Below are positions 1,226-5,176 of a DNA stretch of 45,353 nucleotides, one piece after another. Every line of letters begins with the position of its first letter. Position 1 is the first letter of the stretch. The notes beneath the pieces were generated by a model, which was not told where the DNA came from, made no database searches, and saw only the letters and a program-made list of their open reading frames with translations. Source of the DNA: Ignavibacterium sp. (GTDB lineage: Bacteria > Bacteroidota > Ignavibacteria > Ignavibacteriales > Ignavibacteriaceae); the NCBI GenBank assembly GCA_020354005.1, contig CP070637.1, forward strand, positions 2,042,615-2,087,967, written 5' to 3'. The position numbers and the translations under genes are program-made.

Positions 1226-3457
1226 TTGGATAACGGAAAACAGAACGATCTATACAGCACGACTGATTCGAATACACTAAAAGATTATATCAGATTAATC
1301 AGGAACCACTGGGTTCCGGTTTTATTAATCAGTATAACCGGGCTTGTGGTTGCTATTGTGTATGCTGCAAACACAACCGATATTTATAAGTCTACTACAT
1401 CATTAAGAATATCTAAAACAAAGGGTGACGTTTTAACCTCGCCTCTTATGCCCGAATTTACAGACTGGGGAAATGACAGGTTTATAGCAAATGAGATTGA
1501 AGTGATGACTTCCTATACTACCCGGGAGAAGGTAGCCACTGCATTAATTGATAGTTACTATGTGAATCCTACACCTTCGCTTTACTCGGTCATATTGAAT
1601 GGTGATGTAGATTTATTTGATACACCGAGTTCACCAAAAACTGTTCCCAGTCTAACAAATTCATTGGGAGGAATTTCTATTGATCAAAAAAGGGGATTAG
1701 ATATAGTTGAAATAAGTGCTGAATCTCCCTCACCATATGAAGCCGGTTTGATTGCCAACACATATGCAGAGCAATATACCTTTATCAATTTAGATATGAA
1801 CAGGAACCAACTCCATCTTGTAACTGATTTTTTAAAAGAACAGAGAATAGAAAAGCAGCAAGAACTGAATGATGCTGAGGAAACGTTAAAGGACTTCCAG
1901 GAAAAAGGTGGTTTAATTGCATTGGATAAGAGAGCATCAACTCTTATAGATCTTCTTGCAGAATTTGAAGCAAAGAAGAGTGCAACACAGGTTGACCTAA
2001 TGGCTTCTAATAAAGTATTAGAAAATCTCAGGCTGGAACTTGAGAGCCAAAATCCCAAAATGGCAGATTATTTAAAGAGTCTCTCTTCGCAGACTTACAT
2101 AACTGCTATTCAGGATCAGATAGTTAAAATGGAAATTAACAGGGAAGTAGCACTATCAAAAAATGAGAACAGCAATGGTAATGCAGCGATAATAAAGGAA
2201 TATGATAGAAAAATTTCAGAACTGCAACAGGAGCTTGATAAAGAATTACAAGTATTAAAAGCCGGAATATTCGCAAGCAGTCCGCAGGAAGTAAAAGAAC
2301 TAACTCAGAAAATAATTGAAGAGGAAGTAAGGAACCAGGCACTACAAACCTCAATAAATGAACTGGATGGTATAGTAAAGAGTTACGAAGCCCGATTTAT
2401 GAAACTTCCAAAAAATACATTGGAACTTGCTAGATTAGAACGAAACTCTCAAGCATTAGAAAAATTGTATATTTTATTGGAGCAGCGTTACCAGGAGGCA
2501 TTGATTAATGTACAATCACAACCTGGCAATGTTATTATAATAGATAAGGCCAGAATACCTAAGAGTCCATCCAAACCGAATCGAACTTTGATAGTATTAA
2601 TTGGATTGGTTTTAGGAACTGGATTGGCAGTTGCTTATGTTTTCATAAAAAATTATTTCGACGATACAGTTAAAACACCTGAAGATATTCAGCATAAAAA
2701 TGTTAATGTATTAGCCTGGATTCCAAAAATCGAGGGTCTTGGTCTAAATGGTAAAAGTGATTTTCAATTCATTGTTGGTAAGAGTCCTGAATCAATTCCC
2801 AGCGAAGCATTCAGAGCCTTAAGAACCAGAGTTCTGTTTTCAAGAATAGAGAAAGAAACTCTTAAAACTATTCTCGTTACTTCCGCAGCACCAAAGGAAG
2901 GAAAGACTACCATTAGTATAAATCTAGCAGGTAGTTTTGCATTAACAAATAAAAAAACATTGTTGTTAGATTGCGATTTAAGAAAACCTCAGATTCATAG
3001 TATTTTCAAATCGCGCAGATCGCCAGGATTGATAGATTATTTATTTGGCGATGTTCTCTTAGATGAAATAGTTAAGACAACAGATGTTGATAATTTACAT
3101 TACATTACAACCGGTACAATTCCTCCAAATCCTGCTGAGATGCTGGATTCAGATCAAATGAGAAATTTGTTGGCTAAATTCCGCAATGAATATGATATGG
3201 TAATAATTGATTCCCCACCAATTATAGCCGTAACGGATTCTGAAATCTTATCTAATCTTGTCGACGGGACCTTGATAGTTGTTTCCGCCGATACAACCGA
3301 AATAGACCTGATGGAAAGGGCAGTTGAACTGATTAAAAGAGAAAATTCTCAATTCCTTGGTACTGTCCTTAACAATTTTAGTTACAAGAGTGGATATGGA
3401 TCCTACTATAAATACTACTATTATTACTCCAGTCCTGAATCGAAAAAGAAAGTTTAA
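1226..3457 (+). CDS. Polysaccharide co-polymerase and tyrosine autokinase (Wzc/BY-kinase type)
   Basis: A 743-residue protein combining a Wzz chain-length domain with a cytoplasmic bacterial tyrosine kinase. A first membrane helix (about 33-53) is followed by a long periplasmic coiled coil (about 200-430), a proline-rich segment (PKSPSKPNR) and a second helix (about 455-475). The kinase domain shows Walker A (APKEGKTT, about 553-562), Walker A' (LLLDCDLRKP, about 579) and Walker B (MVIIDSPP, about 657). The C-terminus is a tyrosine cluster (YGSYYKYYYYY), the usual autophosphorylation tail. The family controls polymer length and export of capsule or exopolysaccharide through phosphorylation cycles. 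It starts at TTG just after the SLBB gene. No Wza, Wzx, Wzy or glycosyltransferase gene is present in the window. Confidence 0.93.
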   Translation: MDNGKQNDLYSTTDSNTLKDYIRLIRNHWVPVLLISITGLVVAIVYAANTTDIYKSTTSLRISKTKGDVLTSPLMPEFTDWGNDRFIANEIEVMTSYTTREKVATALIDSYYVNPTPSLYSVILNGDVDLFDTPSSPKTVPSLTNSLGGISIDQKRGLDIVEISAESPSPYEAGLIANTYAEQYTFINLDMNRNQLHLVTDFLKEQRIEKQQELNDAEETLKDFQEKGGLIALDKRASTLIDLLAEFEAKKSATQVDLMASNKVLENLRLELESQNPKMADYLKSLSSQTYITAIQDQIVKMEINREVALSKNENSNGNAAIIKEYDRKISELQQELDKELQVLKAGIFASSPQEVKELTQKIIEEEVRNQALQTSINELDGIVKSYEARFMKLPKNTLELARLERNSQALEKLYILLEQRYQEALINVQSQPGNVIIIDKARIPKSPSKPNRTLIVLIGLVLGTGLAVAYVFIKNYFDDTVKTPEDIQHKNVNVLAWIPKIEGLGLNGKSDFQFIVGKSPESIPSEAFRALRTRVLFSRIEKETLKTILVTSAAPKEGKTTISINLAGSFALTNKKTLLLDCDLRKPQIHSIFKSRRSPGLIDYLFGDVLLDEIVKTTDVDNLHYITTGTIPPNPAEMLDSDQMRNLLAKFRNEYDMVIIDSPPIIAVTDSEILSNLVDGTLIVVSADTTEIDLMERAVELIKRENSQFLGTVLNNFSYKSGYGSYYKYYYYYSSPESKKKV

Positions 3458-3474
3458 TAGTTTTTTTGTTTATG

Positions 3475-3484
3475 GTTCGTAGTT
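3475..3484 (+). repeat. Left arm of inverted repeat flanking the four-helix-bundle gene
   Basis: GTTCGTAGTT here is the exact reverse complement of AACTACGAAC at 3921-3930. The match extends imperfectly on both sides to about 20 bases (TTTATGGTTCGTAGTTCTTAG against TTTTTAGTTCGTAGTTGTTGC on the opposite strand, 16 identical positions by eye). The arms bracket one gene and its leader, about 450 bases in all. Confidence 0.65.
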
Positions 3485-3564
3485 CTTAGTTTTGATCATA
3501 CTTTCTGTGAGTAAAAGGTTTTTAACTCCCCATTATTTCATCAAAAACATCATGAGAGGTTACT

Positions 3565-3933
3565 ATGAAAATTGAAAAATTTGAAGACATCAAGTCCTGG
3601 AAAAAAGCCAGAGAACTAGTTAAACTGATTTATGGTATTACAAAAGATGGTATGTTCAGTAAGGATTTTGGTTTACGTGATCAAATCCAAAGGGCATCGG
3701 TTTCAATTATGTCAAACATTGCAGAAGGATTTGATAGTGGTACTCAAAAATCATTCATTAATTTTCTAAATTATTCCTATCGATCAACTTCTGAAGTTCA
3801 ATCTCTATTGTACGTTGCAAGTGATTTAAACTACATTACACAAGAACAATTTGTTGATTTATATAATCGTTCAAAAGAAATAAAAAAATTAATTGGTGGC
3901 TTCATACAATATTTGGCAACAACTACGAACTAA
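3565..3933 (+). CDS. Four-helix-bundle protein (S23 / 23S rRNA intervening-sequence protein family)
   Basis: A 122-residue, mostly helical protein with family hallmarks: the start FEDIKSWKKARELV, the central IQRASVSIMSNIAEGF and the end YNRSKEIKKLIGGF. Family members form a four-helix bundle and occur either inside 23S rRNA intervening sequences or as stand-alone genes; their biochemical role is unknown. Here it stands alone, with a Shine-Dalgarno (GAGAGG) about five bases before ATG. The gene is enclosed by inverted repeats at 3475-3484 and 3921-3930, the right arm encoding its last residues. This suggests a small mobile or dispersed cassette inserted between the polysaccharide genes and the decarboxylase operon. 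Family assignment is confident; function is not known. Confidence 0.9.
   Translation: MKIEKFEDIKSWKKARELVKLIYGITKDGMFSKDFGLRDQIQRASVSIMSNIAEGFDSGTQKSFINFLNYSYRSTSEVQSLLYVASDLNYITQEQFVDLYNRSKEIKKLIGGFIQYLATTTN
3921..3930 (-). repeat. Right arm of inverted repeat flanking the four-helix-bundle gene
   Basis: AACTACGAAC is the exact reverse complement of the left arm at 3475-3484. It forms the last sense codons of the four-helix-bundle gene, just before its TAA stop at 3931-3933, so the coding end and the repeat end coincide. Confidence 0.65.
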
Positions 3934-3987
3934 AAACAAAGCACGAAGAACTGAAGACTTTTATCCGTTGCGTTGGATCTGCATTCT

Positions 3988-4024
3988 CGAAAAACTTCAA
4001 ACCTTGGACATTCAACTTTGAAGT
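3988..4024 (-). terminator. Intrinsic terminator of the mutase/decarboxylase operon
   Basis: On the minus strand ACTTCAAA (4024-4017) pairs perfectly with TTTGAAGT (4001-3994) across a 15-base loop and is followed by a short T-run. It lies ten bases beyond the stop of the decarboxylase beta-subunit gene, where an operon terminator is expected. The stem is AT-rich and only eight pairs long, so efficiency may be modest. Confidence 0.55.
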
Positions 4025-4033
4025 AATAGCAGA

Positions 4034-5176
4034 TTATATATTAAGGAGGAACGCCATTAAAATACCAGCAGCAACAGCACTACCAATAACCCCAGAAACG
4101 TTTGGAGCCATTGCATGCATTAGCAGGTGATTGGAGGGATCATCCTTAAGTCCTAATGATTGCACAACCCTTGCGCTATCAGGAACAGCAGAAACTCCAG
4201 CTGCGCCTACCATCGGATTAATTTTATTTTCATCGCTTAAAAACTTATTCATAACTTTAGCGAATATTACACCGCCAGCTGTGGCTATTGCGAATGATAT
4301 TGCACCAAGTACAAATATCAATAGTGATTGAGGTGTTAAAAAGATCGTTGCTTGTGTAGAGGCACCAACGGTTAATCCTAAAAGAATTGTTACGATATCA
4401 ATCAAAGCGTTGCGAGCGGTATCGGCAAGACGTTTTGTAACTCCGGATTCCTTTAATAAATTTCCGAAGAATAGCATACCAAGCAGCGGTAGGGCACCCG
4501 GCGAAATGAAAGTTGTAAGAAGCAAACCAACTATTGGAAATATTATCTTTTCAATTTTTGAAACCGATCTTGGCGGTTTCATTCTCATTTTCCTCTCCGA
4601 AGGTGAGGTGAGCAATTTTATTATTGGTGGCTGAATGACAGGAACTAACGCCATATACGAATAAGCGGCAATAGCAATAGGTCCAATCAATTCAGGTGCA
4701 AGTCTGGATGATAAGAAAATGGCAGTGGGGCCATCAGCACCACCAATAATACCAATCGATGCGGCCTGCTGCTGTGTAAATCCAATTGCCAATGCACCGG
4801 CGAAGGTTATAAAAATTCCAACCTGAGCAGCGGCACCCAATAGCATAAGCTTCGGATTTGAAAGAAGCGCAGAAAAATCAGTCATCGCGCCAATACCAAG
4901 AAAAATAAGTGGGGGATAGATACCTTTAACTACTCCGTAGTAAAGATAATTCATTACACTGCCATCTTCGTAAATACCCAGCTTTAAACCAGCATCTTCT
5001 AAAAATGGAATGTTGCCAATCAGTATTCCAAATCCAATTGGTATGAGTAGAAGAGGTTCATATTCTTTTTTTATGGCCAGATAGATGAAAAGAATACCGA
5101 CCATTATCATAATTATATGGCCGGTGGTAAGATTGGCAAAACCTGTAAAATCAAAAAACTGCTTAATTCCTTCCAT
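4034..5176 (-). CDS. mmdB: Sodium-pumping decarboxylase beta subunit (OadB/MmdB family)
   Basis: A 380-residue polytopic membrane protein, the carboxybiotin decarboxylase subunit that couples release of CO2 from carboxybiotin to Na+ export. About nine to eleven hydrophobic segments are visible. The signature [10 protein letters not shown] lies at 145-154 with the conserved aspartate at 148, and the C-terminal part carries [18 protein letters not shown], typical of the family. It is the last gene of the operon, two bases after the biotin-carrier stop, and is followed by a terminator. Length is close to the shorter methylmalonyl- and glutaconyl-CoA decarboxylase beta subunits. The partner carboxyltransferase and epimerase indicate methylmalonyl-CoA rather than oxaloacetate as substrate. 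Confidence 0.93.

Follow-up and report, generated by a model that had tools for sequence, protein, structure and literature searches.

The window, by which is meant the whole stretch of 45 353 nucleotides analysed (contig CP070637.1 of assembly GCA_020354005.1, Ignavibacterium sp.), carries near its start a gene for a four-helix-bundle protein of the S23 family, flanked by two inverted 10-mers, GTTCGTAGTT (3475–3484) and AACTACGAAC (3921–3930). These are part of a larger inverted pair of 23 nt with 87% identity (3465–3487 and 3918–3940), as the first-pass annotation of this DNA had described in reporting exact arms with an imperfect extension. It had also noticed that the right arm is made of the gene's own last codons, and this was confirmed: the right 10-mer lies within the reading frame and corresponds to its last three codons, and the 23-nt pair also covers the stop codon. 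A 7-nt periodicity in both arms had been missed (Table 1).

Table 1. Features of the S23 locus (positions in the window).
Feature	Position	Strand	Description	Basis
Upstream gene	1226–3457	+	co-directional, ends 12 nt before the left array; taken to encode a Wzc-like chain-length/tyrosine kinase	ORF list
Left degenerate 7-nt array	3470–3497	+	TTATGGT TCGTAGT TCTTAGT TTTGATC; holds the left 10-mer	lag-7 score against shuffles
S23/four-helix-bundle gene	3565–3933	+	122 aa, ATG start, TAA inside the right array	PF05635, TIGR02436, AlphaFold2, Foldseek
Right degenerate 7-nt array	3921–3959	+	ACTACGA ACTAAAA ACAAAGC ACGAAGA ACTGAAG ACT; inverted with respect to the left array, holds the right 10-mer	lag-7 and arm-pair shuffles
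Downstream gene	4034–5176	−	convergent; presumably decarboxylase beta-subunit-like	ORF list

Of 2000 dinucleotide shuffles, one reached the score of the window arm pair, as did one of the 444 window positions scanned with equal spacing; the lag-7 scores of the arrays were reached by 5 (left) and 8 (right) of 2000 shuffles. One neighbour of the S23 gene is co-directional and one convergent. S23 is the sole ORF between the arms, and the element has no recombinase gene of its own. An Rfam search of positions 3000–4400 gave no match and the neighbours are protein-coding, so the element does not lie inside a 23S rRNA gene. Promoter-like sites numbered 0 in the element, against 3.3 expected; expression of the S23 gene by read-through from the host operon is therefore likely. 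The decarboxylase-like gene had no match in the other five genomes of the genus, which leaves the window copy without an orthologous site for comparison.

The window protein scored 120.6 bits against PF05635 (cut-off 33.8, E 4e-35) and 114.5 bits against TIGR02436 (four helix bundle protein, cut-off 24); the match to the bAvd profile PF22296 was weak (25.4 bits, below the cut-off of 40). The AlphaFold2 model (pLDDT 94) predicts the S23 four-helix fold. Foldseek searches with the model returned 2gsc as the best match (TM up to 0.86), next 2rld (TM 0.69–0.80), and then bAvd of the reverse transcriptase particles of diversity-generating retroelements (DGR; 4dwl and 8ub7, TM about 0.75). Entries 2gsc and 2rld contain five chains each and are taken here to be pentamers; bAvd binds RNA. 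The S23 protein is without a recognised catalytic domain.

The expectation that the same arm of about 20 bases would recur at other loci failed. The exact window 10-mer occurs seven times in the 2.8-Mb genome, against nine occurrences of the reversed control, which is the chance level; five of the seven copies are unrelated single sites, and the 10-mer is absent at the other S23 genes of the genome. The arm sequence is therefore not a signature of the family. The architecture was conserved at other four-helix-bundle loci: each of the four PF05635 genes in the window's genome stands, as judged by eye, between inverted arrays of short period whose sequence is particular to the locus, with units GCTAAAT (L008), ACTGAGT (L009), ACTACGA (window) and a looser CCTAATT type (L011). 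The family is present in all six genomes of the genus (42 match rows, several truncated or with stops), and at some of these loci period 8 replaces period 7. Beside the S23 genes of L031 and L016, the right flank holds an extra, gene-less inverted array pair.

Arrays were scored by lag-7/lag-8 self-similarity in 200-nt flanks, and a locus was called positive if one or both flanks scored at least 10. Scanning one genome per species gave 582 confirmed places, of which the best 80 formed the named set (Bacteroidota, Acidobacteria, Nitrospirota, Planctomycetota, Verrucomicrobiota, Clostridia, Proteobacteria, Chloroflexota, candidate phyla and an archaeon). Among these best 80 of 582, 64 loci were positive and 16 fell below the threshold, against 8 of 72 positive control regions 1 kb away and 2 of 80 positive at the control lags 10/11. 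In a phylum sample consisting of the best S23 gene per genome, 22 of 30 loci were positive (control 1/30), and within the genus 17 of 26 (control 0/26), this count leaving out of the 30 genus loci the contig-cut L017 and L025 and the second parts of split genes, L032 and L036. The background in random stretches of the window's genome was 5 lag-7 segments at score 10 in 395 711 bases.

The left and right arms of a locus were also alike when one was inverted: their match exceeded the 95% level for swapped loci at 70 of the 80 named loci (best 80 of 582), 21 of 30 in the phylum sample and 19 of 29 in the genus (29 of 30 loci, with L017, L025 and L032 still included). The own partner arm ranked first in its row for 49 named loci (best 80 of 582), 17 of the phylum sample and 15 of the genus, about 1 being expected. 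Across 127 elements the median size between outer arm ends was 476 nt and the median arm 30 nt, or about four units; G exceeded C in the left arm of 105, C exceeded G in 14 and the two were equal in 8. G-rich arrays were also seen by eye in all five cyanobacterial plasmid copies inspected, out of 34 plasmid records matched. The repeat sequence is thus locus-specific, and what the loci share is their layout, with degenerate 7- or 8-nt arrays in inverted orientation. These data point to the minimal S23 cassette with such arrays as a real and general structure.

Unit length (7 versus 8) tracks the S23 protein tree, with 8 changes against 16.9 for shuffled labels and none of 500 shuffles as low; one clade of 11 contains nine octad loci and no heptad locus. 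The tree comprises 126 of 132 proteins and rests on a short alignment, so that many of its forks are weak. In 65 pairs of related S23 genes whose flanking genes are not homologous, arm similarity was 8.0 (left) and 8.5 (right), against 5.3 and 5.2 for far pairs, and an excess as large was reached in none of 1000 permutations on either side; the 40 nt just beyond the arms of the same pairs were slightly similar (17 and 7 of 1000 permutations). Over all pairs, arm similarity and S23 distance were weakly correlated (−0.048; 57 of 500 permutations as low), and the link between arms and protein is visible in close S23 pairs only. Three long-branch rows (L014, L027 and L033) are omitted from the arm-similarity comparisons. 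One of the related pairs at non-homologous sites is L129, from a betaproteobacterial MAG, and L161, from a Chitinophaga MAG, with near-identical units, for which mis-binning of a MAG is possible. The S23 gene and its arms behave as a single unit.

The simplest alternative, an ordinary operon gene inherited vertically with arms that arose by chance, we consider extremely improbable: several S23 loci are indeed kept between congeners, but the window arms themselves go beyond shuffles, and for the family the array statistics across the sets, together with the exchange of elements described below, exclude chance arms.

Evidence of exchange comes from junctions of paa genes. In one bacterial family a PaaJ homologue was present in 56 of the 92 genomes, and the inspection covered 30 loci. 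An S23 gene with arrays lies between an upstream thioesterase-like gene and paaJ at 12 of the 30, at one of them in broken frames. Gene-less inverted arrays occupy the junction, as judged by eye, at L188, L189, L190, L192, L193 and L196; some of the remaining junctions hold short single arrays (by eye), and L198 holds an S23 fragment on the opposite strand. Genomes G105 and G043 have PaaJ proteins that are 96% identical, yet their S23 proteins at the same junction are 56% identical and the arms differ; between G105 and G124, S23 is 79% and PaaJ 88% identical. At the next junction the S23 protein of G043 is 51–53% identical to those of G059 and G105 (themselves a 98% identical pair), with heptad versus octad arms and flanks that are 89–94% identical. 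Orthologous S23 loci between these congeners are often 87–100% identical, as expected from vertical inheritance, and since other S23 loci at homologous sites are so well kept, exchange is likelier at the paa junctions than fast evolution. Concerted evolution of the arms around one gene at paaI–paaJ had been considered and was dropped in favour of exchange once S23 and PaaJ identities were compared. Exchange of elements implies at least two independent arrivals at one junction. Much of the pattern at the paa site also fits a single old insertion followed by losses, which counts against mobility. In one genus, several junctions of one paa cluster hold separate S23 elements (L302, L306 and L307; L309 and L312).

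Elements were also found inside coding genes. At L056, L245 and L041 the S23 element interrupts a DNA methyltransferase gene within a short loop, and homologues without the element (L246/L251, L247/L250, L248 and L249) read straight through; the host frame is open through the element and differs from that of S23. Frame +2 was open across the element at 4 of 110 loci, namely the methyltransferase-like genes of L041, L056 and L064 and the intergenic L146, which was rejected as an in-gene insertion because, despite its open host frame, the site lies between argJ-like and argB-like genes. The methyltransferase-like ORF of L064 (frame 2) also encodes other SPLAIRHS-type peptide repeats in frame, which are translated heptad arrays without S23. 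The sites compared for target-site duplication were too diverged or already occupied; neither a duplication nor movement of an element was seen at any locus.

Of 138 loci examined for orientation, 122 had both neighbours classified (the genus loci L017 and L025 being mis-framed in this count): S23 was sense to both neighbours in 97, antisense to both in 5 and mixed in 20. At L240 an S23 gene lies antisense between ribonucleotide reductase subunit genes, and on an Anabaena plasmid (L241, 1501–1869) one is flanked by cas6 and cas4 in a type I-D CRISPR operon.

The strong bias towards sense orientation within operons would suit a fairly improbable alternative, in which pairing of the arms folds the transcript into a stem for RNase III to cleave, and the element is an RNA intervening sequence, a passenger excised from the transcript. 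It has a precedent in the 23S rRNA intervening sequence (IVS) of Coxiella, which, according to the available part of PMC4990558, has a 28-bp terminal stem, is excised by RNase III, and carries tandem GACAGAT heptamers, in strain-variable copy number, before the S23 start. In keeping with a stem, arms matched better unit by unit (20.8) than with their unit order shuffled (17.7), a comparison biased by the choice of arms for their match. Against it, the mismatches between arms, which were alignable in 132 of 143 loci, comprised 131 G–U and 147 A–C (p=0.37), with no wobble excess, and lone arrays without a partner occur. The absence of a G–U excess argues against retention of the arms as a stem in the sense RNA, and their complementarity more likely reflects one unit in inverted orientation at the DNA level.

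Arrays are not exclusive to S23 genes; gene-less and lone arrays rule this out. Gene-less arrays outnumber S23 loci in some genomes, where hairpins are frequent as well. Twenty GAGT-type arrays, one per genome, comprised one beside a decayed S23 gene, four gene-less inverted pairs and 15 single-sided arrays. Segments with lag 7/8 at score 12 numbered, per 200 kb, 0 in G070 and 11 in G034 (where control lags were raised too), both S23-rich, and 0 and 1 in two S23-free genomes. G137, G154 and G173 have 49–68 overlapping exact GAGT-type heptad matches each; these many exact arrays are most likely slippage-grown.

Such observations favour, to a degree, a different account, which we nonetheless regard as unlikely: the arrays would be independent repeats, either heptamers grown by slippage or hairpins at gene junctions, and S23, with a host function unrelated to mobility, would land or be retained there. 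Long perfect arrays do resemble slippage products, and the heptamers of Xanthomonas and Nostoc are described, in the available part of PMC4692102, with no mention of S23. The account is opposed by the tracking of S23 lineage by unit length, by arms that accompany a gene lineage to unrelated sites, and by the distribution of exact GAGT-type arrays in one bacterial family, where 53 of the 74 S23-bearing genomes have them and none of the 15 S23-free genomes does (Fisher 1.5e-7), the S23-free ones being mostly small and related. The reversed-pattern control for the GAGT type was invalid, since the reversal is a rotation of the identical repeat type, and forward/reverse counts were used.

The reading that we favour, and hold to be reasonably likely, is that the window gene and its arms together make up a single copy of a tiny mobile cassette consisting of an S23 gene of the Avd fold between inverted 7-/8-nt arrays. 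The best reading of its nature is a cassette of about 480 bp related to 23S rRNA intervening sequences. The annotation's idea of a tiny element that carries only this gene is supported in part: for the family it is backed by arms common to unrelated sites, by junctions with and without S23, by exchange and by in-gene insertions, and the test by a literally shared arm failed. Relatives show that the cassette is present in many phyla, that its arms accompany the gene to unrelated sites, that close relatives have probably exchanged cassettes at one operon junction, and that cassettes sit in sense orientation at gene junctions and even within coding genes whose frame remains open. From the tracking of protein lineage by unit length, the S23 protein would bind its own arrays; arms of four to five units would fit an S23 pentamer, and binding would promote copying or insertion at the DNA level and not via an RNA stem. 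Gene-less arrays may be non-autonomous derivatives or remnants. In short, the proposal makes the arrays the probable target of the Avd-like S23 protein encoded between them.

These data single out no helper enzyme, since a reverse transcriptase match is absent from the window's genome and a Y1 match from some genomes that bear S23. An RVT_1 search gave no match in the window's genome, and matches in two of the nine genomes searched; reverse transcriptase was rejected as a helper for want of a match in G000, G043, G059, G031, G123, G124 and G074. Y1 transposases have three matches in the window's genome, and were rejected as a requirement because G047 (eight S23 matches) and G129 (seven) are without a Y1 match. 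A tentative and rather doubtful extension makes S23 the core of a widespread mobile element that works without a classical transposase or a dedicated reverse transcriptase, in which an Avd-fold oligomer would hold the terminal 7-/8-nt arrays while both 3′ ends of a host break were extended with copies of a common repeat unit (telomere-like tailing), which would leave G-rich arms in inverted orientation, whether or not a gene lies between them. Were this true, bacterial heptameric repeats would largely be footprints of the S23 element.

The closest known relatives are the 23S IVS of Coxiella and Leptospira, which have the S23 protein family and inverted ends in common with the cassette. In Coxiella the IVS measures 428 nt and has heptamers just before the S23 start (available part of PMC4990558), a length close to the median of 476 nt between outer arm ends given above. 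Unlike the IVS, the elements described here occur in gene junctions and coding genes, in many copies per genome, with 7-/8-nt arrays on both sides and arms without an RNA wobble signature. Their position outside rRNA and the missing RNA-stem signature make the cassette a free-standing kin of the 23S IVS and not a member. Degenerate 7-nt arrays are also known as the Xanthomonas and Nostoc heptamers (PMC4692102) and the TAACTGA repeats (PMC4679880), the likeness being drawn from the published descriptions in the available parts of these papers. The available part of PMC4692102, which describes the heptamers GGGAATC (Xanthomonas) and GGGGA(C/T)T (Nostoc), gives counts of 186 and 183 arrays, mostly of four units, with 70 and 75 convergent inverted pairs, or 70–75 per Xanthomonas genome; it lacks the term 'S23' and states that little literature exists on heptameric repeats. 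S23 is likewise not mentioned in the available part of PMC4679880. A literature search, whose scope left out most subscription journals and bioRxiv, found no publication that links S23 and heptads beyond PMC4990558.

REP/BIME sequences with RAYT, MITEs and Rickettsia palindromic elements resemble the cassette as small inverted-repeat elements with gene-less copies, and the Rickettsia elements also in their in-frame insertion into coding genes (available part of PMC10969869). In contrast to REP/RAYT, MITEs and the Rickettsia elements, the gene here is S23 and not a transposase, and the termini are arrays of short degenerate units whose sequence differs per locus. With bAvd of DGR, S23 has the fold in common, together with the weak PF22296 match; unlike a DGR, the window's genome has no reverse transcriptase match, and the S23 bit score lies below the bAvd cut-off.

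Whether the IVS is a remnant of transposition or a mobile element is left unsettled in the available part of PMC4990558, and as far as the available parts of PMC4990558 and PMC4692102 go, the spread of S23 and the origin of bacterial heptameric repeats stand as separate open questions. If S23 and the inverted 7-/8-nt arrays are one element, both questions become testable using a single protein together with a single repeat. In that case a definable nucleic-acid substrate would be at hand for a cellular protein related to the DGR Avd, and the S23 cassette would be a possible source of the short repeats found in many bacterial genomes.
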